Of a stretch of 34,183 nucleotides of DNA, positions 8,017 through 34,183 are shown piece after piece; the first letter of the stretch is position 1; the number at the start of each line of letters is the position of its first letter. The stretch covers positions 1-34,183 of IMG/VR virus record IMGVR_UViG_3300036980_000349, one strand, 5' to 3'. Both the position numbers and the translations under genes were made by a program. The stretch is from a virus. The notes under the pieces were generated by a model that worked only from the letters and a program-made list of their open reading frames with translations, had not been told where the DNA came from and ran no database searches.

Positions 8017-8021
8017 GGAGG
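8017..8021 (+). promoter_or_regulatory. Shine-Dalgarno for the glycosyltransferase GTG start
   Basis: GGAGG lies 5 nt before GTG 8027. An in-frame TTG at 8015 overlaps the site itself and is therefore an unlikely start; the ATG at 8025 is in another frame. Confidence 0.6.
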
Positions 8022-8026
8022 ATAAT

Positions 8027-16100: not shown

Positions 16101-19100
16101 ATGAAGCTATTTCGGGCACTCTTCCCCGAGAAGTGACTGCTGAGTTTAATGCAATGCGGCAGGCAATTGAAAGCGCGACTGTTGTAGTTGAAGCGAGACA
16201 CCTACCCGCCCTTCAACTCGTATTAGATACTGTGAAGAAGTTAGAAATGACAACGCGGGAGTTTGCGGGGGGTAGCCTTTATCGGGCTCCTCGGGGCTTG
16301 ACTCCTGAGTGGTTAACTGAGAAGTTAGGCATTAGAACGGGTGCGGAGCCCTTTGCCTTTGGTGGATTCGGTCTTGAGGAATCACTAACTGCCTACACTC
16401 CTGTTGGAGGTCAAAAAATCTCTGCCATGGGGAGGTACTTTAGAAAGGTTGGTGAGGAGATCGAGGAGTACTTCCAAATGATCGGCGCACAGTTAAAGCC
16501 GACTGCCGCCCAAGCCGCTTTCCCCGGTAATTTAGAAGTCGTGGACATTGGGCTAAGAAAGATTCAAGGGGGAGTTGTTAAATCCCTGGAGTACACGATT
16601 GATCAGCTTGCTAGACATGAAATGCCCGTTCAAATGTTTGAGCCCACTATAACAGAGTACTTCCCAAAATTAATTGAAAGACTTGGGATTGCAAAACAAG
16701 CCGCGGGGGCCCCAGGGCATCGTCCTGATGTGGCTGCTTTAGACCTTACTTTAGGTAATACCAAACGTCAACTCGAAGTTGTCCAAGCCTTATATCGCGA
16801 ATTATTTGCAATAGTAAAGAGTGGAAAACCGATAACTGATGAAGTTTTCCAATCTATGGAAGCAAAAGCAAAAAGACTGAGTAACACCTTCAAGCGGGAC
16901 CTGATTGTTGACGTGGATACGTTGTTAAATAAACTTCGTCAATACATCCGCTTCGGAGAGGCAGTTCCTGAAGTAGTGCAGCAAGCGTTAAAACTTCCCG
17001 CAAAGACCGGCGGAGTTCGCTCCGGTATTTTTGAATTACTTACCGGTACTCCAACGGGCGCTCCCGGCGAAAAACCTTTCCTTGAGACCCTACAACCTGA
17101 GGCCCTCCTGCGACTTGAACATGGACTTTCAACAGCCAAGGCTGACGCAATAGCGAATCCTAGACTCCCCGAAAAGGTTTTGAATGGAATTCTTTGGAAG
17201 ATTGAAAAAGCCCAAGGACTACTAGCAACTCGAATTACAAGTATGCCAGAATCTGCATGGCCTAAAGGACTTTACGAGCAACTAAGTCCCGAGTTCCAAA
17301 AGACAGTTGGGAGAGGCCTACCCGGCGCTACAAAAGAAAAGGCAAGCTTAGGAGATCTCTCTGAACTTGCCGCGGAAGCGCAAGCACAAGCCGAAAAAAT
17401 GGAGCAAGCAGAGAGATCGATCCCCAAGAAGATTAACGAAGTTACACCTCTTAAAGTTGCGGCCCTGAAGAATCAACGCAAGGAGATGGTCGATCAAATA
17501 CAGCAAACTAAGAAAGTTGTGAATGAGGAAGCTGAACAAGTTCAACCTACAAAAAAGGTTAAGACTCCGAAGAAGACCGCTTTTGAGGAACATGAAAACG
17601 CAGAAGCACGTGCCGCGGATAGGAAGGACTCAAAAACAGTTGAAGAGGCCGTTGAGAGCTTATTCGGCACTCCTGAAGGTACTGGAACCGGTGGCACAGT
17701 TAAGGGGCGGAATAAGTATCAAACGGGCCCCAACTCAATGGTTGATGTTACAAATCAGAGCCTTTCTCTCAAGAACCGCCTTGCCGAGCTGAGTGAACAG
17801 TTTAATATTTTTGGCCATGCGGTTTCAAGTACTGGGGTGCCCGTTAATACCTTCATGCAAGGTATGACTAGTATCACCCAAATGATCAACGGTGTCATTA
17901 AAGAAATGGCGACAATGGGGGGATTAGCTCCTACATTCGATACAATGGTTGAGAAGTTCAACGCGGAGTCTACTAGACCCCATCCAAAGACGCAAGCAGC
18001 TGGACTACCTCTCGCGTTCACTGCTAATCTTCTAGACGCAGCCCCCGATATTTCAGTTCCTACTCCCGTTAAAACTATTAGAACGCACTGGACTGAAATG
18101 GAGGATCTACGGAAGGAAATTGATGAAAATCGTGTGGCGTATTTAGCTGCCAGACAAGGCTTAACTACAGATGAGGGGGCAGGCGTCGGCGCTCAATCGC
18201 CAATGCATCAAGTATTGGAGAACACCCAAGCAAGACATATTGAATTGACGGATCGGTTAAAAGTCAAACGGCAAGAAATGATCGCTACGATGGACGTCCT
18301 CCTGAGTAAGGAAAACCTTGCCCAAGATATCTACAATCGTGAAATTTCAACCATCGAGCAGCTCGGTTATAAATATCAAATTTTGAAGGCCGGCGCTGAG
18401 ACGGGTACTGGAGCGATCGCTAGCCGCACGGCCCATTTAGAACCACTGCAACAAGCGGAGACGATTGCACGTGAAGCACTCGTGAGTAACGCTTGGAATC
18501 GCCCTGGTTCATTGGGGGAAACAGCAAATCCTTCATCTCCCTTCTTGAATCTTGAACAGCCCGCGATGTCTCCAGTCGATGTGATGCGTAAGATCTTTTC
18601 ACCTGCCGCATCTGGAGAGGATCCATTCGCACACCAAAAAAGAAACATCCAAACATTTGCGGAAATCTTTGGTGAGAACGCCCAGAAGATTGCGGAGATT
18701 TATGCAAAGCTGAATGAGTCCTTAAGGCTTGGGATTAAATTTCCTGAGTTTGACAAGACGTTTGGAGAGCGCACATCAAAAATGGCGAAAGAATTAGAGA
18801 CGATGGATGCCTATCTTCAAAAACACGGTATCTCTCAAGCAGCAGATGCAGATCGTGTGGCGCTTAATGATGTCCTCCAAAAAGAAACTGAGGACTTTCT
18901 AAGCTCCGGCTTATTCCCTGCTATCGAGCAAACTTATCGCAAAATTTCAAATGAAGCGAAAGTGCTGCGTGAAATACAGGTGGGCCAAGATTTCGTAGCG
19001 AAGATCAAGAAGAGCACCGAAGCTGTCGCGGGGATGCAAACTGAATTAAGTGCCCTAACTAAGACCCTTGAAAAATTCAAAGCGCAGGGAATGGGTGTAC

Positions 19101-22100
19101 AGTTTAAAATTCCTGCGTATGAGTATTCTCAAGAGAAGATCCACGAGGCCCAGAAAATGTTGTTCCAAGCGCAACGTGGAGGTGCTCCAGCATCTGAGCT
19201 AAAAGGTCTTGCTGATACAATTGCTGAAACTCAAGCGGCTAGCAAGAATATGTTATCTGTTTGGGATCGGTTGACCAATACCATCAAAACTTCTCGGAAT
19301 TCAATGGCTGAGTTGTTCATGTATCAAGTTCGTTGGTATTCGTCAATGATGGTGTTCTTTGCCATCTTTAACCGCATCTCTGAACTTTTCTCCAACATGG
19401 TGCACGCCCAGTTTGAAATTGAACGGGCTACGATCAACATGCGTGAGCATACAGGTGAAGTAGTCGCTAACTATGAACGCCTTCAATCCATTGCTCGTAC
19501 TGCCATCTTCGAGGGAATGGAGAAGTGGGGGTACACTGCCAAGGATGCCTCTGAGGCCCTCTACCAACTAGGTTCAGCCGGTTTAACCGCGAAGGAAGCT
19601 TTAGCTGCGTTGAATCCCTCACTTGCAATGGCGATGGGTACAACTGCGGATATGAGGGAATCAGTAAAGACTTTAGCTGGGTTATACAACGTCCTAAGCT
19701 CTTCAATGACTCCCCTTGATAGGCTATCTCAAAGTATTGGCCTTTCAACTGCCGCCGAAGCCAATGCCCTGTCGGATGCTGCACAAAAAGGTGCTACATT
19801 TCGGCACATCGCAGATACTCTAACTATGGTGTTCCGCGATCACCAGGTTGAGATGGGTGAACTGAACAAAGGGTATCAATTCGCCATCTCCTCATCCGAC
19901 TTAGCTGGTCTTTCATTTGAACAATTGTCCGCGATCTTAGCTGTACTTAATGATAACATGATTAAAAGTTCTCGAGCTGGTCGTGGGGTGAACCAAGCGA
20001 TAGCTCAACTGGCTAAAGATCCTTACGCCGTCTTCGGTTCGTTTAAACAAATGGCGCTTGCTATGGAAGACTCGATCCGAGCGTCTGATAAAGGTGCCGA
20101 GAAGTGGCAGCGCGTTCAGGATATCTTGTCTAATTGGGACTACTCGAAACTCAAAGACAAAAACATGTTCGAAGCGTTCGGTGAGCTTTCAAAAATGATC
20201 AATGCTACGGGGTTAGACATCGGCACCTTGAGTAGAATTTTAGAGAACTTTGGAATTCTAGGCGGACGCGCCGTTGCTCCGATGTTAAAGAATTGGTTTG
20301 ATATTGAACGTGAGTCTATTCGCCTTTCCATTTCAGCTGCCGATTCATCTGAAATGATGGCTACCAGGATGTCCAATACAGTAGAAAAAGGTCTTTTAAA
20401 AGTCAGTGCCTATTTTCAATCTGCGTTTTATGATGTTATCTCCATAACTGGAGTCTTCTCAAAAGCCGTCTTAGGCTCCTTTGCACAAATTGGAGAGTCC
20501 GCCTCCGGACTTGGAAAATCAATTAGCGCCTCCCTGCCGGCCTGGTCCACTGGGGGTGGATTCACTGGAGGCTTCATCGAAGGCGCCTTAAAAGTTGCTC
20601 CTACCGTACTCACCCTTGCCAGCGCATTCTGGTTATTAGGGGGAGCAGTTCCAAAAATCGGAGCAATTTTTCCTGCTATCGGTGCTCATGTACTTTCCGT
20701 TGGCACAAAGATTGGTGCACTAACTACTGTCCTATATCAGGCCGCTTCCGGTACAGTCGCTCTTGGGACAGCAGCACAGGCTGCAGATGTTGCGTTGTCA
20801 TTCTCCGGAATTGGAAAATTCCTCTTAGGAATCGGAGTTGTAATTGGTACATTCGCTTTAATGACCGGGGTCTTTAAAAGGTTTTTTGAAAGTTCAGAAG
20901 AGGCTCATGCAGCAGCTGAACAATCTGTCGCAAACTACAATGCGGAGCTGGCGAAGGGCATTCAGAAACAAAGAGAAGCGTGGACTCAAGCTACTTATAT
21001 CAACCAGACTCGGACTGCTCTTTTAAATCTAACTGCCGAAATGTCCGACAACGCGAAGGTCACTGAGGAAGTTTATCAACGCTACCGCCTATACGCTGTC
21101 TCTCTTGGAGCAACAACTGAAGTAGAGAAACAACGATTCGCAAACATTGGCGAGCTTAGGAAGTCTCTCACCACTCTTCAAGGTTCTGAGGAAGGAGTAT
21201 TAAAGGCCTCAAGAGAGCGGGCGTTCTTCGCGGTCAATTCAATACAAGCCGAAAAGTTATACGTAAAAGCTGTTGAAGATACTATCGCCGTAATTCAAAA
21301 ATTGCGTCAAGAGTTAGAGACAGTCAATAGATTAAAGGAGGTAGCTGCGAAGGGCACAGTGATTCTACCTTCAAGCCCCTGGGCTCCTGAGGGGTTATAT
21401 GGACCTCCAGATTCTGCCGCAGTCAATAAGCTTACATATACAGAGAAGGCTCTAAAAGCAGAGGAAGAAGCGAGGATTGAGGAGTTGAGACAATTAGGGC
21501 GGCAGCGACTAATGCGTGCAACTGTAGATGTTTTTCCTCCGGGTGTTATCGCATCTATTAAGGAGAAGGGGGAGAAAGACGGAGCGGAGGGAGAGAAGGC
21601 CGCTCTTGAAGCGTTCGATAAGGGAATGCAAGATGCTCTTAAAAATGTTGGTAGTAGAGAAGGGCTAGCCGCTCTCATATTTCCGTCTATAAAGGGAGAT
21701 ACGAAATTAGCAGGTGAACAACTTGACAACTTGCTCGCGGAGATGAAGAACAAAGGCCCTCTGTTTAGTAAGTATATGGCTTCGATGGCGACAGTTACTG
21801 GAATTCCGTTAGGAGCGCAAACACAAGCTCAAGCCATGCAGAAGACATTTGATGCGCACAATTCCGCGATGCAAAATAATATTGCATCCAAAGAAAAGTT
21901 AATCCAGATTGAGAATGACCGGCTCGTTCAAATTCAAAAAGCTAAGATTGTTGATATGGATGAAGTTGAGTCAATCATGTCCCGGACTGCAGCCTTGAGT
22001 GCTGAAGCTATTCAATTAGAAAAGACTAAAGCCGCCCAAGAAAGAAAGTTTCAACTCGACAAGCTTTCAACGAGCTCTCCTTTGTATAACGCGGAAGCTG

Positions 22101-25100
22101 CGAAGGTTGAGACAGAGCATAGAAAGAAAAACCTCGAACTCGAAGATAAAGCTTTAAAACAACGCAACGAGAATCAACGGATGTACGAGCAGATGCTCAC
22201 TGTTTGGTATAAGCAAACACTTCCCCAAATTAGAGAGAAGGGTCAATCACTTACGACAGGGCCCAGCGGCGCCTTAGAGGTGGTTAAACCTGGAGCGGCT
22301 GAAACAACTGAGCAAATGATAGACGCTCTGAAACCTAAGGTGAGAGTTACAAAAGAAAAGTTCCAAGAAATTGTAAATGAGTTAAAGCAACAAATGACTC
22401 AGTTTGGATTTGGGCCTGAAGTTGCAAAGATCTTCATGGCCTTGATAGCTCATGAGAGTAATTATGTTGAAACCGCGATAGGTATTCAAACGGATTATGG
22501 TAAAGCTCGCGGCCTCTTGCAGATTCTTCCTTCCAACCTTACTGCTATGGGGGTTAAAGAGTCTGACTTCTATGATGTTAGGAAAAACCTCAACGCAGGG
22601 GTTAAGATGCTCCAAGGGCTCGATTCTCGGTTTAATCTTGACCTTCGTAACTTTGCCGCGAAAAGTCCTCAAGAGCAAGAAGACACCGTCAAGATCATCG
22701 TCTCGGCTTGGAGTGCAGGTCCTGGACGCGTTAAGTCGGTAGCTCAAGGCATAGTTCCTAACATTAAGGAAACCCAAAATGAAGTGAAAGACGTTTTGAT
22801 GCATTGGGGGCGTTTAAAGGGTGTAGCGATTGGAACTGCTGATGTTATCAGATCCGATGCCGATGCGTTCATCCTAAAATTCCTGGAGAAGATGTCTACA
22901 CCGGGGGGTGGAGTTCTTGAGCTCCCAGCACAGTCTCGTGTAACACTTATCAAAGGATTCATTGAATTCTTCGCCCAAACTTTCGGCTCTCTTGATAAGT
23001 TAACTCCGGCCGTCAAAAATAAACTCCTTGAGTTCGGTCACTCCGCTGGAGTTTCAATCCAAGACTCAATGAAGATGTCCGTTGCTGGGATTGAAAAGAT
23101 GCTCGAAGCCGGGCAACTTGTATCGCCTGATGCACTTGAAAGATTTTATGATGCCCAACTCGACCGGTTTAAAGATGTGGGCAGTGCGCAGTTCGGCCAA
23201 AAGCAAATGAAGGATTTGGGTCAAAAGCAAATTCAGGCAATGTTACAGCAAGACTTTTTATTTGAGCCGGGCATGTTTGATCAAACCGCCGCTCAATTAA
23301 TGCGTATCACGGAGCGGTCTGGCCTCACCATGACTAAGCTTTATAATATGCTTACGTCCGGAATGAACCCTGAAGTGATGAAGAACATATTGAGGGGAAA
23401 TGAAAATGTAACCCTCGAGTTCTACCGTAACTTCATGTCCACCTTCGAGCGGGCTGGGAGGGTGCCCACAAAGTTATACGCTGCTTGGGAGAGCGCCATT
23501 GTTGAGATGCTCGGCATTGGCGATGATTTCACGGAAGCAACCCTTCGTAACTGGGCTGCGATCCTGAAAGAGCTTCCCGTAAAGAAATTGGGGGAGGATG
23601 CCGCTGCATTTGCGAAGTACTTCACTCTCCTAGCTGCTCGCAAAGACATCAAGACCGATGATCTTCGGTTGATGTCGAGCCTGATGCAGCAGTTTGGTGC
23701 ATCAGCCGATGAGATTTGGAAGGCCTTTGGAGATGTCGCCGATCAGCAGATCCGTCGTATTCGTGCAAGTTGGTATGAATCGGGATCTGGACTTAAGAAT
23801 GACCTCAAGGAGTCTGCAACTCTTGGGGATGCTCTTTGGTGGTCAATGACTAAGGGTGTCGCCGACTTCGCCTCAAAACTTCGCGATCCTTTTAAAATGC
23901 TTTCAGATACTGTTTCGGGGATCCTAGAGCAGACTCGCAGTACTATGGAAGAAATGTTCACTGATCTTGGTATGAGGCAACCTAAGACCTGGCAAGAATA
24001 CCAGAATAAGTTTGCAGAAGGGTTAATCAAGATTGGCGCCAAGAATATGTCTGAGCAAGTAATGAGCGGCATGACCGATATGATGGGTAGTGCCTTTGGA
24101 ATGTCACCTGAAACGATGGAGAAAATGGGCCTGAAGAAATCAACAGCCGCCCAACGCACATCTGAAGACGCAAAGAAGACAGCCGCTTCTGCCTCAAGTA
24201 TAGATTCCACACTAAAGTCCATGGTGCCTCCATCGGAAAGAACTGCAGCTGCAACTGTCAGTATTGATACTAAAATGGGTGCTGGATCTGGACTAGGATC
24301 CCCAGGTGCAGCTTCTGGTTGGCCAGCTAGTCCAACTCCTGGGCCTGGCGAAGGTGCATATGAGAGAGTTAATCAAGAAACATATAGAAAGTATCCAGAA
24401 CTAGATCCCTTGTACGAAAAAATGAAGAAAGAAGGAATTGTAACTGGGAGGAAGACATCAGATGAAAGAATCGGATCTGAGACTGACACTAAACTAACGT
24501 CAGAGTCTTCGTCAACTTCCGGAACATCAACTGGTGCGAGTGGGTTCTCTCTATCTAATATTCCAATTATTGGTCCGATCTTTTCAATCTTACAGTCGCT
24601 ATTCAGTGGTCTAGGTAGAATGATCGGATTTAGAACTGGTGGAATTGTTCCCGGGTTCGGTTTTGGAGATATAGTTCCTGCAATGTTAGAACCCGGCGAA
24701 GCTGTTATTCCTCGTTCCGTGGTTAGAAAGTATCAGGATGGGGGCGAAGCATCCTCTATCGATGAAGAAGCACTTCAAGAAATGATGATGCAGATGGTCG
24801 ATGCGCGAGTGAGCGACACCTTAGAACCTCTTCAAGAAAGAATGGATCCGCTTGCCTCAATCGGAGAGGGTAACTATGGCCCCGCATTTGAACGGCAGCT
24901 AGCTTTTCAAGATTACATGGATCGTGCCTCCGCCGCGGATAATCAAAAGAAGCTCGCAGAGTGGAACATGAACACGGCGAGAGATGTTCAAGCATTCCAG
25001 TCTCAACCGACATTAATGGGCACTTTAATGCAAATGGGTATGAGTACTCTTAAAATGGTGGGAAGTATGGGTGGGATGATGGCCTTGGGAGGTCTTGTTC

Positions 25101-26998
25101 CCCACTTTGCGGTTGGAGGGCCTATTTTAACAACTCGCTCAGAGTCAGAGCGTCCTTGGCTTTATGCTAATCCTAGAACACTCACAATTGATGAGTCCGA
25201 TAAAGTACCTTGGTGGCAGACGCTTTACTCATATACTAGCGCCCTCCTAGGCCCTGCAATGATATTAACTAAAATGTTTGGGGGTAAAGAAGGGGGAGGT
25301 AAGTTCCCATCAGGATCCTATGAAAAGATCGGGCAGGAGAAGTTTAGACTTGACCCTTCATCAGACCCGATGCAAGGTGGTGGAAGCTGGCTGGATAAAA
25401 TCGGAAGCTGGTTCTCAGGATCAAAAGGTGCTTCGCCCGCAGACGCTACAGCCGGAGCTGGAAGCGGCGGCGGAGGAATCGGAGGTCTATTTGGTGGATT
25501 AGGTACTACTGGAATCGGTGACTTCTTTAGTGGTATTGGTAGCTGGTTCGGTGGTCTCTTCGCAGACGGAGGAGTTGTACCTCCCTGGGCTCCTAAATTA
25601 GCTACAGGCGCATATGCGACAAAGTCGGGCTACTTCCCAACTTCAGGTTACGGGTCATCGACAGCCGCAAATAGTACTTACACGACTACTGGGACTCAGG
25701 GTAGTTACTGGCCTGCTATGATAATGGCAATGCTACCTTTACTGTTCATGCTTCAGAAGTATGGTTTGGGTGGAGATAAAACAAAGAAGGCTGAAACTGC
25801 CAAACCTGTCACTCCCACCGATGTTTCAAAGACTGGAGAAGAACCCGGATTCTTTGGTAATCTTTGGACTGGTTTCAAGGGGTTGTTCGGAGCCTCTTCA
25901 GGTGGATTAATCCCTCATTATGCTGGCGGTGATCTCGTTGAGCTTCTTCAAAAGAAACGCCCTGACTCAGGTAAGGGACTTATTTGGGATATGGTTCTTG
26001 AAGAGTATGGGGGTAAGGCGAGCGCAGCCTGGAGCACAGTCCAAAATTATTTACCTGACTTCTTAAACACCAAACAGAAATTTCCTCCAGGCTGGAGTCC
26101 GGAAGAAATAGCAGCGGAAAGAGCTGCTGGAATGCTGAGTCCGGCACTGGGTGGTGATATTGCCAAGTCAAGAGGATTACCCGAAGGCCACATTCCTGAT
26201 GCGTGGAAAAATAGAGGGTTGATCGAAGAAGGTTATCCTCCGATCGAAGAGGCTCTTGGTGGATTAATTAAAGGGTTTGCAGATGGTGATCTTGTCGAGT
26301 TTCTAACTAGATCCCGCCCTGATACCGGCAAAGGTCTTATTTGGGATGAAGCTTTAGCTCAAGGAATTTCCGGCGCGTCTGGAGTTTGGGATTGGGTTTC
26401 CTCCTTATTGGGAGGCTCTGGTGGTGGCTTTGGTAAAGCAAAGATGAGTCCGTTTAACGCAGATGGCACTCCTCCCGACCCCGCAGAATATAAAGCTTGG
26501 ATGAAGACCCAAGGGGTAAGAAAAGCTTTAGGTGGACTTATTAACATGTTCGCTGTCGGGGATCAAGTTCCAGGACTTGGAAATGGAGATACTGTCCCCG
26601 CGTGGCTGACTCCTGGCGAGTTTGTAGTCAATAAAGGAACTGTGGGCGCCTTCAGTCCCGAGTTCTTCCACGGACTTCAAGGTATGGCCAAACAACAGAA
26701 GATAGATTCAATTGCTCATGTTGCCGGAGCGGCTCATCAAGCTCAGAGATTTGCAGCGGGTGGAATTGTTAAAACAGGCCCAGCTGCAACTACTTCTTCC
26801 GCTGCTGGCGGAGAAACATCAGGAGCTTCAATGTCCGGACATGCCGCAACGTCACCAGACATTAAAATGACAATGGTGACGGTTGTAGATGACGCCTCAC
26901 TCGACCAATTTCTTAATACAAAGAAGTACGGTGATGTTCTCGTTAATAAACTCGGATCTAGAATTTCAAGACGCATGTCTGGTGGGAGAGCAGTTTAA
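13187..26998 (+). CDS. Giant tape measure protein with lytic transglycosylase domain, 4603 aa
   Basis: It sets tail length and is ejected with the DNA. Residues 1-2040 are mostly helical, with a Lys/Pro/Glu-rich linker about 1430-1500. A hydrophobic stretch near 2045-2062 precedes a TP901-type core (about 2076-2400: FEIERATINMREHTGEVV, then SAGLTAKEALAALNPSLAMAMG). Hydrophobic membrane-like segments lie about 2474-2570. An SLT lytic transglycosylase domain covers about 3060-3190, with catalytic Glu3090 in AHESNY, GLLQILP (from 3109) and SAWSAGPGRV (from 3173). The C-terminus is Gly-rich with GD-VPA-L-PGE-V motifs at about 3818-3850 and 4463-4490. GAGGT lies 6 nt before ATG 13187. Usual length is 700-2000 residues, so this is exceptional. 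Confidence 0.93.
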   Translation: MPLGLNFQANVDLTSFNKAISSMVEGLNVAQKRITEITTQVGPQAEKIFKGFKIDPTGVTSPLNSVLGTLSQVGKALDTINEKSGKLKWSSAFEMDRDVKQASTSLNSLVRTLMEAADAMTQVGTRMQSTRLLNRSVIDEGGKSLRDLTKDVKELERAYSQAQRALQKDPGNLGLKDELQVIRSLIRGAESDVSMLQQRIRQTQSVGGILQAEAQGIKRYAASVLESYGSILELGKRGQAAPKPITYTEPTRAAVLPSLAQQTGQTYVEAFARSLFTTTETLHSTLNNALRDMAAKLKFGVDLSGEGVSATATKEITDKYINRLRAASKAINAIVDSPEATKAMLEMGEGTRPPEDLIRKIGSRLDKMSQYLWKQVDEYASKMGEGSSASAGVTGKIPIEQTRAEILPKVAQLTAEINQLEAAGLKTQDLRIVKLREERQQLEATLKYAETHGGLTGVSTAHRTGLDLTVGLSGRTTRQRGSGIDESVYEKTLGLDSRILADETSITNTVIQRTAVSEGALSGLQRTASVVEHLRNLWVGMGAEPGKELVSMLKAAAQLESLIGRSTQIGAFDPEIMKVISSLPIAIGKTTGYIGREIPNTISEASMLLQGTHQGLSGLPGAAPFKEQMDGLTSLDKQLRGISYKNIETQIEKVKTILGEALTDPKTKLPELYKALGHLNTLLESTANVATSVRERASTMFDSVNLGPILEKFGQLESLWSSPLKGKSLSAELDTQMTSFFSSFKEEGAQKPLRDILTLWKEVYKVVQMYHSEVASATKATEFYGTQFRSLSSITQEQDKVVGRTAAIPAHTKGFPKAFADNIREATGTNITEKVIVPVKLDAAASLKELPEGFAKNLDPITRVLTEMAHKFGFNISKELSSATTFGDLEKIFTSMEQRVLRPVGQKFQGAFEQASHGLNLGFEGAKAPLMILNSLSEAFMKVIFHARDLGSVGVNAAGILGGSQRLSLLTNEAISGTLPREVTAEFNAMRQAIESATVVVEARHLPALQLVLDTVKKLEMTTREFAGGSLYRAPRGLTPEWLTEKLGIRTGAEPFAFGGFGLEESLTAYTPVGGQKISAMGRYFRKVGEEIEEYFQMIGAQLKPTAAQAAFPGNLEVVDIGLRKIQGGVVKSLEYTIDQLARHEMPVQMFEPTITEYFPKLIERLGIAKQAAGAPGHRPDVAALDLTLGNTKRQLEVVQALYRELFAIVKSGKPITDEVFQSMEAKAKRLSNTFKRDLIVDVDTLLNKLRQYIRFGEAVPEVVQQALKLPAKTGGVRSGIFELLTGTPTGAPGEKPFLETLQPEALLRLEHGLSTAKADAIANPRLPEKVLNGILWKIEKAQGLLATRITSMPESAWPKGLYEQLSPEFQKTVGRGLPGATKEKASLGDLSELAAEAQAQAEKMEQAERSIPKKINEVTPLKVAALKNQRKEMVDQIQQTKKVVNEEAEQVQPTKKVKTPKKTAFEEHENAEARAADRKDSKTVEEAVESLFGTPEGTGTGGTVKGRNKYQTGPNSMVDVTNQSLSLKNRLAELSEQFNIFGHAVSSTGVPVNTFMQGMTSITQMINGVIKEMATMGGLAPTFDTMVEKFNAESTRPHPKTQAAGLPLAFTANLLDAAPDISVPTPVKTIRTHWTEMEDLRKEIDENRVAYLAARQGLTTDEGAGVGAQSPMHQVLENTQARHIELTDRLKVKRQEMIATMDVLLSKENLAQDIYNREISTIEQLGYKYQILKAGAETGTGAIASRTAHLEPLQQAETIAREALVSNAWNRPGSLGETANPSSPFLNLEQPAMSPVDVMRKIFSPAASGEDPFAHQKRNIQTFAEIFGENAQKIAEIYAKLNESLRLGIKFPEFDKTFGERTSKMAKELETMDAYLQKHGISQAADADRVALNDVLQKETEDFLSSGLFPAIEQTYRKISNEAKVLREIQVGQDFVAKIKKSTEAVAGMQTELSALTKTLEKFKAQGMGVQFKIPAYEYSQEKIHEAQKMLFQAQRGGAPASELKGLADTIAETQAASKNMLSVWDRLTNTIKTSRNSMAELFMYQVRWYSSMMVFFAIFNRISELFSNMVHAQFEIERATINMREHTGEVVANYERLQSIARTAIFEGMEKWGYTAKDASEALYQLGSAGLTAKEALAALNPSLAMAMGTTADMRESVKTLAGLYNVLSSSMTPLDRLSQSIGLSTAAEANALSDAAQKGATFRHIADTLTMVFRDHQVEMGELNKGYQFAISSSDLAGLSFEQLSAILAVLNDNMIKSSRAGRGVNQAIAQLAKDPYAVFGSFKQMALAMEDSIRASDKGAEKWQRVQDILSNWDYSKLKDKNMFEAFGELSKMINATGLDIGTLSRILENFGILGGRAVAPMLKNWFDIERESIRLSISAADSSEMMATRMSNTVEKGLLKVSAYFQSAFYDVISITGVFSKAVLGSFAQIGESASGLGKSISASLPAWSTGGGFTGGFIEGALKVAPTVLTLASAFWLLGGAVPKIGAIFPAIGAHVLSVGTKIGALTTVLYQAASGTVALGTAAQAADVALSFSGIGKFLLGIGVVIGTFALMTGVFKRFFESSEEAHAAAEQSVANYNAELAKGIQKQREAWTQATYINQTRTALLNLTAEMSDNAKVTEEVYQRYRLYAVSLGATTEVEKQRFANIGELRKSLTTLQGSEEGVLKASRERAFFAVNSIQAEKLYVKAVEDTIAVIQKLRQELETVNRLKEVAAKGTVILPSSPWAPEGLYGPPDSAAVNKLTYTEKALKAEEEARIEELRQLGRQRLMRATVDVFPPGVIASIKEKGEKDGAEGEKAALEAFDKGMQDALKNVGSREGLAALIFPSIKGDTKLAGEQLDNLLAEMKNKGPLFSKYMASMATVTGIPLGAQTQAQAMQKTFDAHNSAMQNNIASKEKLIQIENDRLVQIQKAKIVDMDEVESIMSRTAALSAEAIQLEKTKAAQERKFQLDKLSTSSPLYNAEAAKVETEHRKKNLELEDKALKQRNENQRMYEQMLTVWYKQTLPQIREKGQSLTTGPSGALEVVKPGAAETTEQMIDALKPKVRVTKEKFQEIVNELKQQMTQFGFGPEVAKIFMALIAHESNYVETAIGIQTDYGKARGLLQILPSNLTAMGVKESDFYDVRKNLNAGVKMLQGLDSRFNLDLRNFAAKSPQEQEDTVKIIVSAWSAGPGRVKSVAQGIVPNIKETQNEVKDVLMHWGRLKGVAIGTADVIRSDADAFILKFLEKMSTPGGGVLELPAQSRVTLIKGFIEFFAQTFGSLDKLTPAVKNKLLEFGHSAGVSIQDSMKMSVAGIEKMLEAGQLVSPDALERFYDAQLDRFKDVGSAQFGQKQMKDLGQKQIQAMLQQDFLFEPGMFDQTAAQLMRITERSGLTMTKLYNMLTSGMNPEVMKNILRGNENVTLEFYRNFMSTFERAGRVPTKLYAAWESAIVEMLGIGDDFTEATLRNWAAILKELPVKKLGEDAAAFAKYFTLLAARKDIKTDDLRLMSSLMQQFGASADEIWKAFGDVADQQIRRIRASWYESGSGLKNDLKESATLGDALWWSMTKGVADFASKLRDPFKMLSDTVSGILEQTRSTMEEMFTDLGMRQPKTWQEYQNKFAEGLIKIGAKNMSEQVMSGMTDMMGSAFGMSPETMEKMGLKKSTAAQRTSEDAKKTAASASSIDSTLKSMVPPSERTAAATVSIDTKMGAGSGLGSPGAASGWPASPTPGPGEGAYERVNQETYRKYPELDPLYEKMKKEGIVTGRKTSDERIGSETDTKLTSESSSTSGTSTGASGFSLSNIPIIGPIFSILQSLFSGLGRMIGFRTGGIVPGFGFGDIVPAMLEPGEAVIPRSVVRKYQDGGEASSIDEEALQEMMMQMVDARVSDTLEPLQERMDPLASIGEGNYGPAFERQLAFQDYMDRASAADNQKKLAEWNMNTARDVQAFQSQPTLMGTLMQMGMSTLKMVGSMGGMMALGGLVPHFAVGGPILTTRSESERPWLYANPRTLTIDESDKVPWWQTLYSYTSALLGPAMILTKMFGGKEGGGKFPSGSYEKIGQEKFRLDPSSDPMQGGGSWLDKIGSWFSGSKGASPADATAGAGSGGGGIGGLFGGLGTTGIGDFFSGIGSWFGGLFADGGVVPPWAPKLATGAYATKSGYFPTSGYGSSTAANSTYTTTGTQGSYWPAMIMAMLPLLFMLQKYGLGGDKTKKAETAKPVTPTDVSKTGEEPGFFGNLWTGFKGLFGASSGGLIPHYAGGDLVELLQKKRPDSGKGLIWDMVLEEYGGKASAAWSTVQNYLPDFLNTKQKFPPGWSPEEIAAERAAGMLSPALGGDIAKSRGLPEGHIPDAWKNRGLIEEGYPPIEEALGGLIKGFADGDLVEFLTRSRPDTGKGLIWDEALAQGISGASGVWDWVSSLLGGSGGGFGKAKMSPFNADGTPPDPAEYKAWMKTQGVRKALGGLINMFAVGDQVPGLGNGDTVPAWLTPGEFVVNKGTVGAFSPEFFHGLQGMAKQQKIDSIAHVAGAAHQAQRFAAGGIVKTGPAATTSSAAGGETSGASMSGHAATSPDIKMTMVTVVDDASLDQFLNTKKYGDVLVNKLGSRISRRMSGGRAV
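25901..26387 (+). repeat. Two-copy repeat in the C-terminus of the tape measure protein
   Basis: Copy one begins at residue 4239 (GGLIPHYAGGDLVELLQKKR, then PDSGKGLIWDMVLEEYGG) and copy two at 4358 (GGLIKGFADGDLVEFLTRSR, then PDTGKGLIWDEALAQGIS). The approximate copies are 25901-26030 and 26258-26387. Other GGL/GGI-P motifs nearby suggest the region grew by duplication of a short module. Confidence 0.75.
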
Positions 26999-27207
26999 TG
27001 TCTATTCCTAAACCCATACTACTGTTGGCACATACTGTAGCATTTCCAATCGTAATCACCGTGGCTTGGTTAATGGGCCACGCGAATTTTGGTCATATTA
27101 TCATCTCCGCTCAAGTATCTGTAATTGGAATTCAATTACAGAAGTACTTTTGGTCAGAGCGGGACTACTATGAGGTAAGACGGTTTTTATTTAGGGATGG
27201 AAAATGA
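26998..27207 (+). CDS. Small membrane protein, 69 aa
   Basis: One clear hydrophobic segment (about residues 6-26, ILLLAHTVAFPIVITVAWLM) and a weaker second (about 30-48, NFGHIIISAQVSVIGIQLQ) suggest one or two membrane helices with a basic/aromatic C-terminus (YFWSERDYYEVRRFLFRDGK). The ATG overlaps the tape measure stop by one base and its own end overlaps the hub gene as ATGA. I do not recognise it. A tail-associated or inner-membrane channel component is possible from its place between tape measure and tip genes. Confidence 0.55.
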   Translation: MSIPKPILLLAHTVAFPIVITVAWLMGHANFGHIIISAQVSVIGIQLQKYFWSERDYYEVRRFLFRDGK

Positions 27208-28028
27208 AGGTTTTTTTATACTCGTTTATATTGCAAGCGGAAAGTCAATCGCTCTATCTAACAAATGATAACACTAGCCACACATACGATGGTATTACGT
27301 ATGTTGCTAGTGCTATTGAAAGTAAAGAGTTTTCTTTTGACTTAAAAGAAATCATGGGTGAAGTTCCGATCACAATACCTTGGACTCAGTGCGGCTTCAT
27401 TCAAACATTTCCACAACAAAGCTTGGAAGGTCCAGTCGAAGTTACTGTCTATAGATATGGTACTGTAGACCACAGTATTTCTCTTGTCTTCAGGGGCTTT
27501 ATTAACTCCTTTAAAGTTGCAAAGGCAGCTGTGGATCTTCAATGTATTTCATTTATAGAACAATCTCGTGATAATTTTTCACGTTTAGTTTTAACTCGAC
27601 ACTGTAATCACCGCCTGTATTCAGAAATGTGTGGGATGATTCCGGGAAATTGGGCTTTTAAATCGACAATTGTTGGACTTGACTTTCCCCGAACCCAAAT
27701 TATTGTTAATCCTCCACCTGGCGTTGCTTCCGGTTTTTATCAATATGGATACGCTAAGTGCGACACAAGCCTCACGTATCGTTGGATCACTGGGGATGTA
27801 AGTTCTGAAGTGGCTGTTACCTTTGATATTATGCACCAAGCCCCAGCAAGCTGGGAGCTTGGTACTGAGTTATGGTTATTTGCAGGATGTGATAAGACCA
27901 TTGATACGTGCCGGTCAAAATTTGGTAACTTCTCAAACTTTATGGGATTCCCTTATGCTCCATTTGAGTCTATTCGTTTTACCGGACTCCGTCAGTCTGA
28001 GACTTCCACGTCCGGAGGTAAAAAGTAG
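27204..28028 (+). CDS. Tail hub protein, BR0599/DUF2163 family, 274 aa
   Basis: The N-terminal half (YDGITYVASAIESKEFSFDL, then VFRGFINSFKVAKAAVDLQC) and Cys pair C134/C143 in CNHRLYSEMCG, with C229 in GCDKTIDTC (C236) and then FGNFSNFMGFPYAPFESIR, follow the phage BR0599 C-terminal signature (C-d-t-tC, F-N--NF-GFP--P). In gene transfer agents and many siphophages this protein is the hub joining the distal tail ring to the tip; the conserved cysteines may bind iron-sulfur or form a metal site. ATG 27204 overlaps the previous stop. A DUF2460-type distal tail gene, usually just upstream, is not present. Confidence 0.85.
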   Translation: MKVFLYSFILQAESQSLYLTNDNTSHTYDGITYVASAIESKEFSFDLKEIMGEVPITIPWTQCGFIQTFPQQSLEGPVEVTVYRYGTVDHSISLVFRGFINSFKVAKAAVDLQCISFIEQSRDNFSRLVLTRHCNHRLYSEMCGMIPGNWAFKSTIVGLDFPRTQIIVNPPPGVASGFYQYGYAKCDTSLTYRWITGDVSSEVAVTFDIMHQAPASWELGTELWLFAGCDKTIDTCRSKFGNFSNFMGFPYAPFESIRFTGLRQSETSTSGGKK

Positions 28029-28462
28029 TGTCAATTGTTGAAGACCTCATTGAAGAGCTAACGAAGTGGGTTGGGACTCCTTACGTTACCCGGGGCTATA
28101 TTTGTGGCTCTCGTGGAGGTACAACTTGCGGTCATTATTTTGTGGCATGTATGATCAAAGTGTTACCCCGTGGAGCAGAATTAGAATATTCAATGGCGAG
28201 CGATCATAAGACGATCATTCTAAATCGCATCGATGTCATTACTCCCGCCTTTGAAATTGTAGCGTATGAAGTTCCGCTTGAAGAGATGCGTAGAGGAGAT
28301 GCCGCGATCTTTAAATTTTTTGATTTGCCGATGCAACCCAATATGTATTTAGGGGATGATCAGTTTATTTATTGTACTCGTGCGATGGGTGTGCAGATAG
28401 GACCTCTTCCTTCCAACTTGAGGGGGAGGATTATGCGCGTTTATAGGTGGAAGGATATTTAA
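28028..28462 (+). CDS. NlpC/P60-like tail-tip protein with missing catalytic histidines, 144 aa
   Basis: The layout follows the phage NlpC/P60 peptidases next to BR0599 hubs: WVGTPYVTRG, a Cys motif (GGTTCGHYFVACM; C34), RRGDAAIFKF, then NMYLGDDQFIYC and a C-terminal LRGRIMRVYRW. In active relatives the Cys follows Asp, and two His lie in HVGIY-like and FIHA-like positions. Here those are T33-C34, Q103-P-N-M-Y and Y115, so Cys is kept but both His are replaced. It may be an inactive structural paralogue. GTG 28028 is chosen because GGAGGT (28014-28019) is 8 nt upstream. Usual length. Confidence 0.7.
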   Translation: MSIVEDLIEELTKWVGTPYVTRGYICGSRGGTTCGHYFVACMIKVLPRGAELEYSMASDHKTIILNRIDVITPAFEIVAYEVPLEEMRRGDAAIFKFFDLPMQPNMYLGDDQFIYCTRAMGVQIGPLPSNLRGRIMRVYRWKDI

Positions 28463-28716
28463 TGGCCTTACTCGGTATCGTTACTTTAGTTCTCTGGCTC
28501 GTGAATATGGCCTTGCTCGGTCTGGGGTTTTTGTTATTTAAACCCAAACGGTCCGAACCCCAGAAATCCCCTATGGCCGAGTTTAAAATATCTGCGGTCA
28601 AGGTGGGTGCTACGATTCCAGTAGTTTTTGGAATCGCCAAGGTTGGCGGCTTAATTATTGAGTGGGGCGATTGGCAAGTAATAGCTCACAGAAAAAGAAT
28701 CAAAGCGGGGAAATAG
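28462..28716 (+). CDS. N-terminal piece of a J-like tail-tip protein, 84 aa
   Basis: A hydrophobic N-terminus (residues about 1-26) is followed by PKRSEPQKSP and IPVVFGIAKVGGLIIEWGDW, the pattern of the opening part of phage tip proteins (PVVYGT-V-G-I-W-GD). It ends in a basic tail (HRKRIKAGK) at TAG 28714-28716. The next gene begins at the adjacent ATG in the same frame, starting Gly-rich. In relatives as I remember them, this is one continuous chain with a Gly/Lys linker at this place. ATG 28462 follows GGAAGGA and overlaps the previous stop as TAATG; a longer start at GTG 28447 is less likely. Confidence 0.7.
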   Translation: MALLGIVTLVLWLVNMALLGLGFLLFKPKRSEPQKSPMAEFKISAVKVGATIPVVFGIAKVGGLIIEWGDWQVIAHRKRIKAGK

Positions 28717-30843
28717 ATGGGAGGCGGCGGCAAAAAAATGACGGTAACAACCTACACCTATAGGTGTAGGTATGCTGTTGCTATTAGTTTTGGACCGATC
28801 GATGAGTTTGTTCGTCTCGATTACAATTCAGACTTTCAGAACTACAATCAATCTGGTACGTCCATGTCCTTTGATACGGGGGAGTCTCTCCTTAAAGGAA
28901 CATTCTATTTTGGGACTGAATCACAAGGCGCGGATCCCAGTCTTGAAGTTATGCACGGTGGTAATACTTTATATTATCGTAGGATTGCTTACGCAAGCTT
29001 TTACTGCGATCTAGGGCAATCTCCTTCAATGCCTGCTACCGCCTTTACTCTTTGCAGATACTATTGTCCCTTATCCGATATGGAGTCATATAATGTTCTT
29101 TCAGCCTCTTTGGGGCTTAACCCAGTTCAAGTTTTATATGACATTCTTACAAACAAGTTTTACGGGTTTGGCTTGCCTTCCACTATCATTGATCAGGCCT
29201 CCTTTAGAGACGCCGGTATACGCTTATATAACGAGGGTATAGGCGTGGGTACTTCATTATCTGGTGGCGAACTATACAATGTTATTAGGGCCGTTCTTGA
29301 CTGGGTAGATGCTGAGTTAGTATACGACGAGACTTATGGCAATATTAAAATGATTTTGAGACGCCATGACTACGCGTGGGAGCTGCTTCCAGAGGTAACT
29401 GAGAGTGATATGAAGGCTCAGTCCTTTGAATTAAATCGTACATCTTGGTATGCCTCTAAGAATGTCTGTTACGCTAACTTTCTTGATATTGCCCGCGAGT
29501 GCGACCAGAATTGTGTTTACACAGAGGATCTCGGAAATTTCAATATAACCGGAAATTTACGGGTGCAGGAGTTTAACTTTGATATTTTTACAAACTCCTC
29601 CACGGCTCAATTAGTTTGCAATAGGCTCCTCCACAAACACTCCTACCCCCTCGCAAAAGTTGTCTTCGAATGCTTTGGGGCTACAGGCGAAAACCTTGCG
29701 ATCTTCGGACCCTTCCGACTTTACCACGCCTACTACGGAGTGTGGGGAGCTGTCTATAGAGTTGTCGAGAAAAGACGGCAAGGTCCTAATTTATGGAAGA
29801 TCGAAGCCGTTGAAGAGAAGTACCCGCCTAACTCTCTATTAACTGCGCAGGCCGAAATTCCGTATGACAATCCTGCATACTGGACGAGGACGTCAATTGA
29901 ATGGAGTTATAGAATAGTAGAAACTCCCTACAGAGGAGTCCTAGTGTTAGGGTACTCTGATGATCAACAGGTGGGGCATACAACTCTTGACGCATTCGGA
30001 GTCAGTACAGAGTACTGCGCCAACGAAGTTGCGTACGCTTGCATTGGAAGATTAAAAACGCAAGTTAATTACGCAGGAGCCGCGAATCTTTACCTTCAAC
30101 CAGATAAACATTATGTTGAAGATGATGCGGCGGACATCGACTACATCATGATTGAAGATGAGATCATGAAGGTGACCAACCAAACATCTTCGGGAGAGGA
30201 AATTTATTACTATGCATCAATAAGTAATAGGTGTGTAGAAGGGACGTCTACACCGCCGTGGCAGGAGGGGGAACCAGATTACTATGCTGTTGGTACAAAA
30301 GTCTACGCTGTGGAGTGTAGGGCCTTTTTAGCGGATACTCTGACTCCTAAAAATTCATATAGCTTAACCATCACTCCTCACTACCTGTATCCCAAACCTT
30401 ATTACTTTCCGGATGATGCTAAACAAACCAATCTTTATTATCAAGGATTAATCGTAAGCCCCACCGCCCCCGACAATCTTAGCGTATCGGGTTCCAAATT
30501 TCAAGATTGCACTATTTCCTGGACGAGAGAAAGTAGAGTGTACCCCCAACCTGTTCCTTGTGAAGGATTAAGTTCATATCCTATGAGTTATGGAACTCTA
30601 CCTAATGGCCAAGGTGCCTACCAAGATCAAATCTTGGGATGGAGAATCGATCACTCACTTCCAGGGGGATCCACCAGCCTTTTGACAATCTATGCTGATC
30701 CCACCCCTTCGTCATGTGTATCAAAGTATGTAGATAGAGCAGCTGCGGGATTGAGCAATACTTTCACTGTATATATTTACGCGAGAGGAGTGAAAGGATA
30801 TGACTCTCCCGTAGATGAAGGAACGCACTATCATTTCTTGTAA
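28717..30843 (+). CDS. J-like tail-tip protein, main piece, 708 aa
   Basis: After MGGGGKK, the strands YTYRCRYAVAISFGPIDEFV match the core of putative phage tail proteins (PF13550-like and J/Megatron-type tips). LNPVQVLYDILTNKFYGFGL, then GELYNVIRAVLDWVDAELVYDETYGNIKMIL, and YLD-like EKRRQGPNLWKIEAVEEKYPPNS are the usual continuation. The C-terminal part (about 480-708) looks like FN3/Ig-like domains (SPTAPDNLSVSGSKFQDCTI and SWTRES). ATG 28717 directly follows the TAG of the upstream piece and has GGGG 6 nt upstream, so re-initiation can supply it. It would form the central tail tip and contact the host. Confidence 0.8.
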   Translation: MGGGGKKMTVTTYTYRCRYAVAISFGPIDEFVRLDYNSDFQNYNQSGTSMSFDTGESLLKGTFYFGTESQGADPSLEVMHGGNTLYYRRIAYASFYCDLGQSPSMPATAFTLCRYYCPLSDMESYNVLSASLGLNPVQVLYDILTNKFYGFGLPSTIIDQASFRDAGIRLYNEGIGVGTSLSGGELYNVIRAVLDWVDAELVYDETYGNIKMILRRHDYAWELLPEVTESDMKAQSFELNRTSWYASKNVCYANFLDIARECDQNCVYTEDLGNFNITGNLRVQEFNFDIFTNSSTAQLVCNRLLHKHSYPLAKVVFECFGATGENLAIFGPFRLYHAYYGVWGAVYRVVEKRRQGPNLWKIEAVEEKYPPNSLLTAQAEIPYDNPAYWTRTSIEWSYRIVETPYRGVLVLGYSDDQQVGHTTLDAFGVSTEYCANEVAYACIGRLKTQVNYAGAANLYLQPDKHYVEDDAADIDYIMIEDEIMKVTNQTSSGEEIYYYASISNRCVEGTSTPPWQEGEPDYYAVGTKVYAVECRAFLADTLTPKNSYSLTITPHYLYPKPYYFPDDAKQTNLYYQGLIVSPTAPDNLSVSGSKFQDCTISWTRESRVYPQPVPCEGLSSYPMSYGTLPNGQGAYQDQILGWRIDHSLPGGSTSLLTIYADPTPSSCVSKYVDRAAAGLSNTFTVYIYARGVKGYDSPVDEGTHYHFL
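28750..28771 (+). repeat. Perfect 22-nt palindrome near the start of the J-like gene
   Basis: ACCTACACCTA (28750-28760) is followed immediately by its exact complement. It lies 33 nt after the TAG at 28714-28716, and 11 nt after a run of seven A (28732-28738). As RNA it would form a compact hairpin inside coding sequence; as DNA, a symmetric binding site. Confidence 0.75.
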
Positions 30844-30854
30844 GGAGATTTGCA

Positions 30855-31409
30855 ATGCCTACTAATCTACCCCAGTTTAACACAAAGCGGTTTTCAATTG
30901 GCCCCGCTGTCATGTATTTAGGCGTTGCAGGTGTAGCTCCCACTGTTGACTTAGGTGCGGTGTATGAAGTTGCGGTTAAGGTTACAGCCGAAAATAATAA
31001 GTTTCTACTCGGAGTCCCGGCAGTTCCCCAATGGTATCGTTTTAAAACAATTGAAGTGACTCTCACCGTTAAAGGTCTTGAGTGGAATTTAGAAACTATC
31101 CGAAAGGTTATGGGTGGATACTATCTTCAAGAAACTGTTGGAAATACCGACGTTCAAACTTTGTATGGTACATTTGAATATGTAGATCCCTTCTCTATTC
31201 GAGTCTTACATAAAACGCCAGCTGGGGGAACTATCACCCTTGATGTATTCCGAGCGTTACCTGGTGGAGGTGGAGACTTCTCTTTTGGTCAAAAAGTGCA
31301 TGAGATTCCTTACACGTTTCATGCGATCTCCTCGCCTTTAGATTTTGAAGGTAACGCGCTACCTCCGAATACCGCCTTTAAATTAAAGTTGGAGACTCCA
31401 AATGTCTAA
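30855..31409 (+). CDS. Paralogue of the tail tube protein, 184 aa
   Basis: It aligns over its full length with the tube protein at 11503-12072. The N-termini share MP-NLP, T-RFSIGP, YLG, AG, PT and GAV positions; further on LTVKGLEWNLETIRKVMG, SIRVLHKTPAGGTITLDV and HEIPYTFHAI correspond to LKLSGIEWNVNNLMYALG, ALKIVHQTPNGWTVNV and HKMPYTFNAM. By eye the N-terminal 35 residues are above half identical and the rest clearly similar. AAGGAG (30842-30847) overlaps the J-like stop. It may form a tip-proximal or terminal ring of the tube. Confidence 0.85.
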   Translation: MPTNLPQFNTKRFSIGPAVMYLGVAGVAPTVDLGAVYEVAVKVTAENNKFLLGVPAVPQWYRFKTIEVTLTVKGLEWNLETIRKVMGGYYLQETVGNTDVQTLYGTFEYVDPFSIRVLHKTPAGGTITLDVFRALPGGGGDFSFGQKVHEIPYTFHAISSPLDFEGNALPPNTAFKLKLETPNV

Positions 31410-32478
31410 TCTTGTGTTGTGCGGGTGGGAGTGGGGTACTATTCGAGAAGCCTCTGCGTGGCGCTATTCCGTCGGAGAAGGCAGCATCAAGACCAATAAA
31501 AAGCGGAGTGGGGATTACTCCTGCTTTGTCAATATTTACGATCATGTATACTTCTCGATTCCATGCATTGGATATCTTGGACTGGAAGAGATATATGTTC
31601 AATTTGCTATGCTCTTTGATTCCATTTTGGGGATGTCAGGCTCTTTCTTTTGTTGGAAGGGAGAGCAAGGGGGACTAACATTAGGAACTATGACTGTTGG
31701 AGTAAACGGGCAAGTACTTCTTTACACTGGATGCTCTGGAGATATCTTAGCCGTTGAGCATCCAACTACTGCGCCAAATACTTTACGTATCGCGAGTCAC
31801 ACTAGACTCCTATCCGATGTATGGTACGTCGTCGAGCTTTATATTAAAACTCACACTACTGCTGGAACTATAACCCTGAAGATCGACGGCAACATCGAAG
31901 GAACCTTTTCTGGAAATACTGCAAATGGAAATGCGAGTGAGTGGGGCCATACGAACTACAAGACCGATACTCTTGATTTTTATAATTTCAATGGAATGTA
32001 TTTCGATGATGTCGTTGTTGACGATGCAATTTGGCCCGGATGTCAGAAAATTGTTTTATTACGTCCGGAGGCCGAAGGAGATATAATTGAGTGGTCAAGA
32101 ACTAACGACTACGATAACTATGAACACGTGAATGAGGTTCCCCCCAATACTGAGGACTACGTTTATACCACACAATTAAACAGGACAGATCTGTATCAGG
32201 TGGAACAACTCCCAGACGATGCGTATGAAATCGCTAATGTCCGGGGAGATGCATGGGCGGTAAAAAATAGTGCGTCGAATGCTCAAAACGCAAGCATTGC
32301 CTTCGCGTTAAAAAATGGGGTGACGACTGCTTCAAGTGTATTTGTTTCCGATACGCAGAATCTTTACTTGTCGTGGAAGTTGGTCTCATATTCATGGGAC
32401 ATAGTAAATCCAGATACGGGATATACCTGGACTGTAGATGATATCAATATCATACAGTCCGGAGTTGTATCAGAATAA
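31402..32478 (+). CDS. Tail-tip protein with ConA-like jelly-roll domain, 358 aa
   Basis: The first about 210 residues follow a lectin/glucanase-like jelly roll: MSNLVLCGWEWG, strands through WYVVELYIKT and GTITLKIDGNIEGTFSGN, and FNGMYFDDVVVDDAIWPGC. The rest (about 220-358) is a repeated-strand domain (IIEWSRTNDYDNYEHVNEVP, DDYVYTTQ-like, YLSWKLVSYSWDIVNPDTG) seen after such jelly rolls in phage tail proteins. The ATG overlaps the tube paralogue by 8 nt. No catalytic acid pair is obvious, so carbohydrate binding at the tail tip is a reasonable inference. Confidence 0.65.
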   Translation: MSNLVLCGWEWGTIREASAWRYSVGEGSIKTNKKRSGDYSCFVNIYDHVYFSIPCIGYLGLEEIYVQFAMLFDSILGMSGSFFCWKGEQGGLTLGTMTVGVNGQVLLYTGCSGDILAVEHPTTAPNTLRIASHTRLLSDVWYVVELYIKTHTTAGTITLKIDGNIEGTFSGNTANGNASEWGHTNYKTDTLDFYNFNGMYFDDVVVDDAIWPGCQKIVLLRPEAEGDIIEWSRTNDYDNYEHVNEVPPNTEDYVYTTQLNRTDLYQVEQLPDDAYEIANVRGDAWAVKNSASNAQNASIAFALKNGVTTASSVFVSDTQNLYLSWKLVSYSWDIVNPDTGYTWTVDDINIIQSGVVSE

Positions 32479-34183
32479 ATGATCAATGATTTCTATGCCG
32501 ATTCCTCTTGCTACGCCCATTATCAGTTTGAAGAGGGATACCTTTTTGAAGATTCCCGTAGAACTAACACTCTCTCGAATTTCGAAGTAAGCTCTACTAC
32601 AGGCCCTGGAAGTTATAAAGAAGGGTACGGCGCTGCTGCATTCCATAGAGCGGACAGTCAATTCTTTAAAATAGAAGATTCAGATCTTTGTACGGGCTTT
32701 CCATTGAAGTGGAAATCAAGTCCTACCGACCGCTTCGAAACCCCGAATTACATCTCCTTCTGCTTTTGGTATTATCCAATCACCACGGATGGGACTCAAA
32801 CTCTCATCGCAAAATCAAATCAAGCTGACAAGAAGTGTTTTGAGCTTTCTGTTATTGATAGTTCTCTGTTCTTAATTTGGGGATACAGCGGTTCAGGAGT
32901 TGCAGCGATCACAGTTAACGTTGGGTTTTCCTTCACTCCAGAACATTGGTATCACGTCGGAGTTTCAATTAGTGGTCCAGATGCAGTCGCACACGTTCGA
33001 ATTTGGAATGATACTTCCCAGTTGATTGTTCGTAACTTTCTTGTAGAGTCTGTAGGTACAGATCTAGCAACAAATGATTCCCCCTTAACCATTGGAGCTG
33101 ACTATTCAGGATCGAACTGTATTGATGCTATCCTTGATGAGTTCGTCATCTTTGATATTGAAAGGACGTCTGTTGAATTTGATGCAATACGCACACAAAC
33201 ATACACAGGCCCGAGGCAAAATAGTTTTGTCGATGATCCAACCTGCAAGGCGTTATACAGATTTGAATCAGGAGCTCTTCTAACTGATTCAATCGGAACA
33301 AACCATTTAAGTGACTACAACACTGTACGCACCTCTGAGTTAGTTGGATTGTACATGGAGGGTAAACAGTCTGCGTACTTTAAAAGTTCTTATTTAGAGT
33401 ACGCCTTAATTACTGACGCAAATCTTGCTGCGGGTTTTCCTTTAAAGTCAACTGATACCACTAAGACCTTCTCTGTTTGTTTCTGGTTTAGAAGCACTAC
33501 AACAAGTGGAACTGCATATCTTATTAATAAGACCTCAACTACTTCTGGCCAAAAAAGTTTCGCGGTGTACCGCGTCGGGGCTAGTCTTAGAATGCTTTGG
33601 GGATATAGTAACGGAACACAAACCACTGAAATAGTAATTGGGAATATTTCGGCAAATAGGTGGTACCATGTAGGTATCTCGCTAGCGGGAGGAACCAAAC
33701 CGTATTTGATTTACCGTGTTTGGGATAATGTTTCACGACGTGTAATCTATTTCTATCAATCCCACCCAGGTACCCCTATTTCTGTAGGAGCTGCCCCTCT
33801 CGTCATCGCATCTTCATATCCAGTTGGTAATTTTTTTGATGGATATATTGATGAGGTGGTCATCTTCGCAGACGTTAAAACCGCCACTGAGATTGATCAA
33901 ATTCGCATGGGCGCATATCAAAGACAATTACTCCCCGTATATGTTGATGAATCTGGCTTGACCGTTGACAGTTTTAAAAAGCCACAACACTACGTGTACG
34001 CAGTTGGAGTCTCTCTTCCATACGAGCGAACACCTCAGTGGAGGTGTGGGGGTATCGGTGTGATGATTCTTGCGCAGGCACGACTCAGATTCATTTCGAA
34101 TAGATATTGGTCCGATCCTAATTGTGTAGCTTGTTATAGTTTTGAACGTGATGATCCTGGGCTGTTAGTAGATCACATTAGCG
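32479..34183 (+). CDS. Tandem LamG-like lectin tail protein (3' end outside window)
   Basis: ATG 32479 directly follows the previous TAA, and the frame stays open to the end (568 codons seen). Two full LamG/ConA-like units lie at about residues 11-240 and 256-475, and a third begins near 549: YAHYQFEEGYLFEDS, CKALYRFESGALLTDS and CVACYSFERDDPG start the three. Each full unit has a fixed pattern: a WYHVGVSISG or WYHVGISLAG strand and an LDEFVIFD or IDEVVIFAD strand. Between units two and three is a separate segment (QRQLLPVYVDESG, then HYVYAVGVSLPY). Repeated carbohydrate binding for host adsorption is inferred. Confidence 0.75.
   Translation, partial: MINDFYADSSCYAHYQFEEGYLFEDSRRTNTLSNFEVSSTTGPGSYKEGYGAAAFHRADSQFFKIEDSDLCTGFPLKWKSSPTDRFETPNYISFCFWYYPITTDGTQTLIAKSNQADKKCFELSVIDSSLFLIWGYSGSGVAAITVNVGFSFTPEHWYHVGVSISGPDAVAHVRIWNDTSQLIVRNFLVESVGTDLATNDSPLTIGADYSGSNCIDAILDEFVIFDIERTSVEFDAIRTQTYTGPRQNSFVDDPTCKALYRFESGALLTDSIGTNHLSDYNTVRTSELVGLYMEGKQSAYFKSSYLEYALITDANLAAGFPLKSTDTTKTFSVCFWFRSTTTSGTAYLINKTSTTSGQKSFAVYRVGASLRMLWGYSNGTQTTEIVIGNISANRWYHVGISLAGGTKPYLIYRVWDNVSRRVIYFYQSHPGTPISVGAAPLVIASSYPVGNFFDGYIDEVVIFADVKTATEIDQIRMGAYQRQLLPVYVDESGLTVDSFKKPQHYVYAVGVSLPYERTPQWRCGGIGVMILAQARLRFISNRYWSDPNCVACYSFERDDPGLLVDHIS

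Follow-up and report, generated by a model that had tools for sequence, protein, structure and literature searches.

The tail tip of phage Chi has been solved (PDB 8VJH), and in it a small protein built of a helix and strands (chain U, 76 aa, annotated as "Tail assembly protein 1") is a separate chain beside the hub, chain A. In phage lambda, the gene order L-K-I-J has been compared with genes 13-15 of RcGTA (PMC10721106). The product of the separate lambda gene I, gpI, forms a trimer that plugs the lumen of the tip and is bound to gpJ by beta-sheet augmentation; insertion of its hydrophobic helices into the outer membrane upon opening has been proposed (PMC10721106, PMC11101478). The megatron of RcGTA and R4C is one fused chain, and its first ~45 residues form the iris and a proposed membrane pore (PMC7296036, PMC10276861). 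Phage YuA (Mesyanzhinovviridae) encodes gp74, a member of the phrog_1180 family of small proteins, and gp76, a member of the hub family phrog_1101, each annotated as a phage particle protein. As a separate virion chain, the product of the small family has been demonstrated only for Chi and, by annotation, for YuA. Fused forms occur in Septimatrevirus, FtMidnight and Suzuki, and the megatrons of RcGTA and R4C correspond to these structurally.

The window analyzed here is the whole 34,183-nucleotide stretch of the IMG/VR virus record IMGVR_UViG_3300036980_000349. Its tail operon is of the siphophage type. The tape-measure gene is followed by a 69-aa ORF, hub 1 of the BR0599 type, a probable NlpC-type peptidase, the 84-aa ORF and hub 2, a gene order that corresponds to the lambda L-K-I-J order and to the hub-peptidase-megatron order of RcGTA and R4C. 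The features at the end of this operon that are relevant here are the following:

27204..28028, + strand, baseplate hub 1, gpL-like (RcGTA g13 type), 274 aa; Pfam Phage_BR0599 (4.4e-14), phrog_778
28028..28462, + strand, probable NlpC/C40-type tail peptidase in the lambda gpK position, 144 aa; phrog_329, gene order
28462..28716, + strand, small ORF of 84 codons that ends with TAG, probable stand-alone plug/insertion protein, 84 aa; phrog_1180, phrog_1101, Chi 8vjh_U, split orthologues in related viral contigs
28707..28710, + strand, GGGG, Shine-Dalgarno-like, 6 nt 5' of the hub ATG; same site in L002, the nearest relative found
28714..28716, + strand, TAG, stop of the small gene; TAA in relatives
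28717..30843, + strand, large ORF of 708 codons, tail-tip hub 2, gpJ-like (megatron-like), 708 aa; phrog_1101, Pfam Phage-tail_3, Chi and JBD30 chains
28750..28771, + strand, 9-bp perfect hairpin at the 5' end of the hub ORF; shared only with L002 among the relatives folded

The 274-aa protein also shows similarity to PF09931, the baseplate hub N-terminal domain, with a score of 25.2 bits that is just below the 26-bit cut-off. The 144-aa protein matches positions 535-657 of phrog_329 (3.3e-4), a region of the profile that is also matched by lambda gpK.

Several other genes and elements of the window deserve mention. The tape-measure ORF (13187-26998) encodes a giant protein of 4603 aa in which PhageMin_Tail and SLT transglycosylase domains are recognized; by the general rule of about 1.5 A per residue, its tail would be near 0.7 micrometre long. 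Two paralogous small proteins (34% identity, 7e-29) are encoded before the tape measure (11503-12072) and after the hub (30855-31409); neither has a match in Pfam, and the second has none in PHROG. A family 2 glycosyltransferase gene (8015-10459, 814 aa) lies within the structural gene cluster. The last two genes of the window (31402-34183) abut in frame (TAA followed by ATG), and the final one, cut by the window end at 568 aa, has two LamG-type domain matches and is a candidate receptor-binding protein. Near the window start, perfect 11- and 12-bp intergenic hairpins (792-817 and 2632-2659, respectively) are possibly terminators or processing sites.

The 708-aa protein belongs to the tail-tip hub 2 family (gpJ / megatron / Phage-tail_3) by both sequence and fold. 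It matches positions 75-508 of phrog_1101 (1.6e-53) and, above the cut-off, Pfam Phage-tail_3; a hub profile matches Chi 8vjh_A and JBD30 8rk3, and the fold is similar to those of Chi 8vjh_A (Z 25.2), JBD30 (24.6), RcGTA (23.5) and R4C (21.8). The 84-aa protein matches positions 8-76 of the same phrog_1101 (4.7e-9) and, over residues 11-78 of 84, phrog_1180 (4.6e-5), a 78-position family that consists of the small protein alone and is matched by all 17 aligned members of the small family. A direct phmmer search of PDB with the 84-aa protein alone yields no match, and a Pfam search with the small family yields no credible one, but the profile of the 17 small proteins finds chain U of 8VJH with an E-value of 3e-24. 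The small gene lies directly upstream of the hub gene; a position upstream of the hub gene is also characteristic of phrog_1180 and Chi 8vjh_U.

An AlphaFold model of the two ORFs joined, with the stop read as Gln for the purpose of folding only, is of modest quality (mean pLDDT 52). In it, a helix spans residues 2-25 and strands span 54-62 and 64-80, followed by a linker modeled with low confidence (81-93) and a further strand (93-110). The helix is hydrophobic (19-residue Kyte-Doolittle mean of 2.40); RcGTA and R4C likewise have a hydrophobic N-terminal helix before the hub strands. The 708-aa ORF starts at model residue 86, and residue 2 of the Chi and JBD30 hub chains lies opposite model residues 81 and 88, respectively; therefore, this ORF begins where separate hub chains, that of Chi included, begin. 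The chains of RcGTA, R4C, T5 and Sf11 align further back, to model residues 17-45, so that the small ORF contains strands which in other phages are part of the hub chain. Split hubs repeatedly begin with an N-terminus of the MG type, as does lambda J.

The original prediction, made from the window alone, described this locus as one tail-tip protein split by a single TAG. The sequence facts behind it are all reproduced: the two ORFs are in the same frame, the ATG at 28717 directly follows the TAG, the ends RIKAGK (small ORF) and MGGGGKKM (large ORF) look like one interrupted linker, and GGGG precedes the ATG by 6 nt. The comparison with homologs nevertheless runs against a single split protein, given that the relatives are split as well, an outcome that the original prediction itself named as refuting. 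All close relatives found are divided at the same Gly/Lys linker, with six distinct junctions that vary in stop, spacing and frame. In L002 (identity of 88% for the small protein, 76% for the large one and about 72% for DNA), the small protein ends at the same KAGK, followed by TAA and 1 nt, and the hub starts with the same MGGGG in frame +1. The junctions of L003/L004, L017/L018 and L021 are TAATG overlaps (frame -1), and those of L016 and L022 have a 34-nt gap with its own purine-rich ribosome-binding site before the hub start. In six of the six distinct relative junctions, the stop is TAA and the frame is shifted. A DNA-level search with the tail-tip region among cultured phages gives no match, and a scan of genomic contigs finds no relatives. 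Between the window and L002, dN is 0.10 for the small ORF (with dS saturated) and 0.19 for the large one (with dS of 1.65); both evolve as proteins under protein-level constraint.

Cultured phages show the same division. In YuA, VpKK5, SAP012, PaMx74 and PaMx25, the separation falls at the same linker, and the SAP012 small protein has relatives in 278 phage records. Unlike the window, where the genes abut, those cultured phages with separate genes that were inspected (e.g., SAP012, Casjensviridae) have one extra small gene in between, which is phrog_1196 in the three that were scanned, YuA (gp75), VpKK5 and PaMx74; furthermore, the YuA small protein is only about 25% identical to that of the window. 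Conversely, DLP_2 gp26, FtMidnight gp22 and Suzuki 053 have matches to phrog_1180 as well as to phrog_1101, and the phrog_1101 match starts at the beginning of the profile, so that, by family match, their linker is unbroken and the hub is one chain, unlike in the window. Judging by their reading frames, L023, L025 and L026, which are distant relatives, have the fused form as well. Thus, split and fused states both exist among distant relatives, and the original statement that relatives carry one chain here holds for some of these but fails for the close ones. A fused megatron of the RcGTA type, with the iris/penetration helix and the hub in one chain, is absent from the window and from all close relatives, where the ORFs are separate.

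These observations are best compatible with two separate genes that encode a small tail-lumen plug and a hub made by coupled re-initiation, a reading to which we assign a probability of about 0.93; among the options considered originally, it corresponds to a true gene split with re-initiation, which the split relatives with their differing stops, gaps and frames support. The common frame of the two ORFs is nothing special because abutting or overlapping neighbor genes are the rule throughout the operon and a second in-frame junction with no gap (TAA followed by ATG at 32478/32479) is present in the window and conserved in L002. The in-frame TAG-ATG arrangement itself is a coincidence, explained by a single-nucleotide indel that distinguishes the window from L002. 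Partial amber read-through that would yield an 84+708 fusion in addition to the two individual proteins is very improbable. The frame is open across the TAG, a hairpin lies downstream of it, and a fusion would be viable, as shown by the natural fused homologs in DLP_2, FtMidnight, Suzuki, L023 and L026; however, no close relative is able to make such a fusion, given the TAA stops and the shifted frames, which render it impossible in any of the six junctions, so that an in-frame stop within a continuous frame is kept in none of them (0/6). The hairpin was rejected as a read-through signal because L002, with its hub in the +1 frame, shares it and the other folded relatives lack it. A search for tRNA genes in the window finds none, hence no suppressor tRNA there. 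As anticipated originally, general recoding is rejected on this ground and on stop usage: TAG closes 4 of the 24 genes with a stop (e.g., those ending at 2622 and 28028), compared with 16 for TAA and 4 for TGA.

It is scarcely credible that the gene really encodes one chain and is either a pseudogene or broken by an error of sequencing or assembly. In this record, the two ORFs are only one codon apart, but an independent contig with about 72% nucleotide identity has the same KAGK stop and the same MGGGG start, other stops and other frames occur at the same linker, and the 34-nt spacers of L016 and L022 cannot be point errors; for the family, comparison of these sequences has already refuted this explanation. 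A scenario in which the hub gene was ancestrally fused and underwent fission in this lineage, so that the separate state is derived, would agree with the fused forms of L023, L025 and L026 but is unlikely, given that Yuavirus, Casjensviridae, Queuovirinae and Pamexvirus all have split forms, as do Chi (8vjh) and, by position, lambda. This scenario concerns history and is compatible with two separate genes. The very term "split" is misleading for a small gene that is equivalent in position to lambda gene I, itself a separate gene; the locus is an ordinary new member of a known arrangement that other phages share, among them the solved Chi.

With two separate genes, hub translation most likely involves a ribosome that terminates at the TAG and restarts at the hub ATG, helped by GGGG. 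The predicted duplex of this site with the anti-Shine-Dalgarno sequence has an energy of -6.9 kcal/mol, identical in L002. At the end of the small gene, the silent sites of 11 of the last 13 comparable codons are identical in L002, compared with a gene mean of 0.32 (binomial 1.6e-4, for a codon window chosen after seeing the data). The wider fold around the hairpin at 28750-28771 has z-scores of -3.5 and -3.0, the hairpin does not form in the more distant relatives folded, and it is possibly part of the translational coupling.

The small family aligns in register with the plug-and-strand segment in the C-terminal part of gpI, including a motif around G-x-x-(L/I)PVxxG. The hhalign similarity is weak (probability of 45%, E-value of 2.2e-4 for a single comparison); the gpI profile score is 29.5, compared with at most 17.0 among 60 controls with shuffled columns. 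The gpI set was a diverse one from annotated phages, a scan of viral contigs having given only near-identical copies. Lambda gpI has an N-terminal region of ~130 residues that is absent from the window's protein of only 84 aa, and because this region is missing, the protein is not classified as a gpI family member. By analogy with these relatives, the 84-aa protein is most likely a gpI-like lumen plug with a membrane helix and with beta-strands that hold it to the hub. Its N-terminal hydrophobic helix would be followed by strands pairing with the hub, and three copies may sit in the hub trimer, blocking the tape measure and DNA; upon receptor binding, the helix might be released toward the outer membrane, as for gpI and the RcGTA/R4C iris/penetration domain.

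More generally, it is somewhat favored that phrog_1180 ("tail assembly chaperone") is a virion plug/membrane-helix module, equivalent to gpI and to the RcGTA iris domain, and that this module has repeatedly switched between being a gene of its own and being fused to the hub as an N-terminal domain, always at the same linker. For the small protein, the label "tail assembly chaperone" in public databases appears to be misleading because a homolog forms one of the chains of a virion tip of known structure. These results remove a false candidate for recoding or read-through, and the small ORF gains a likely identity, that of a tail plug, in place of a piece of a broken gene.
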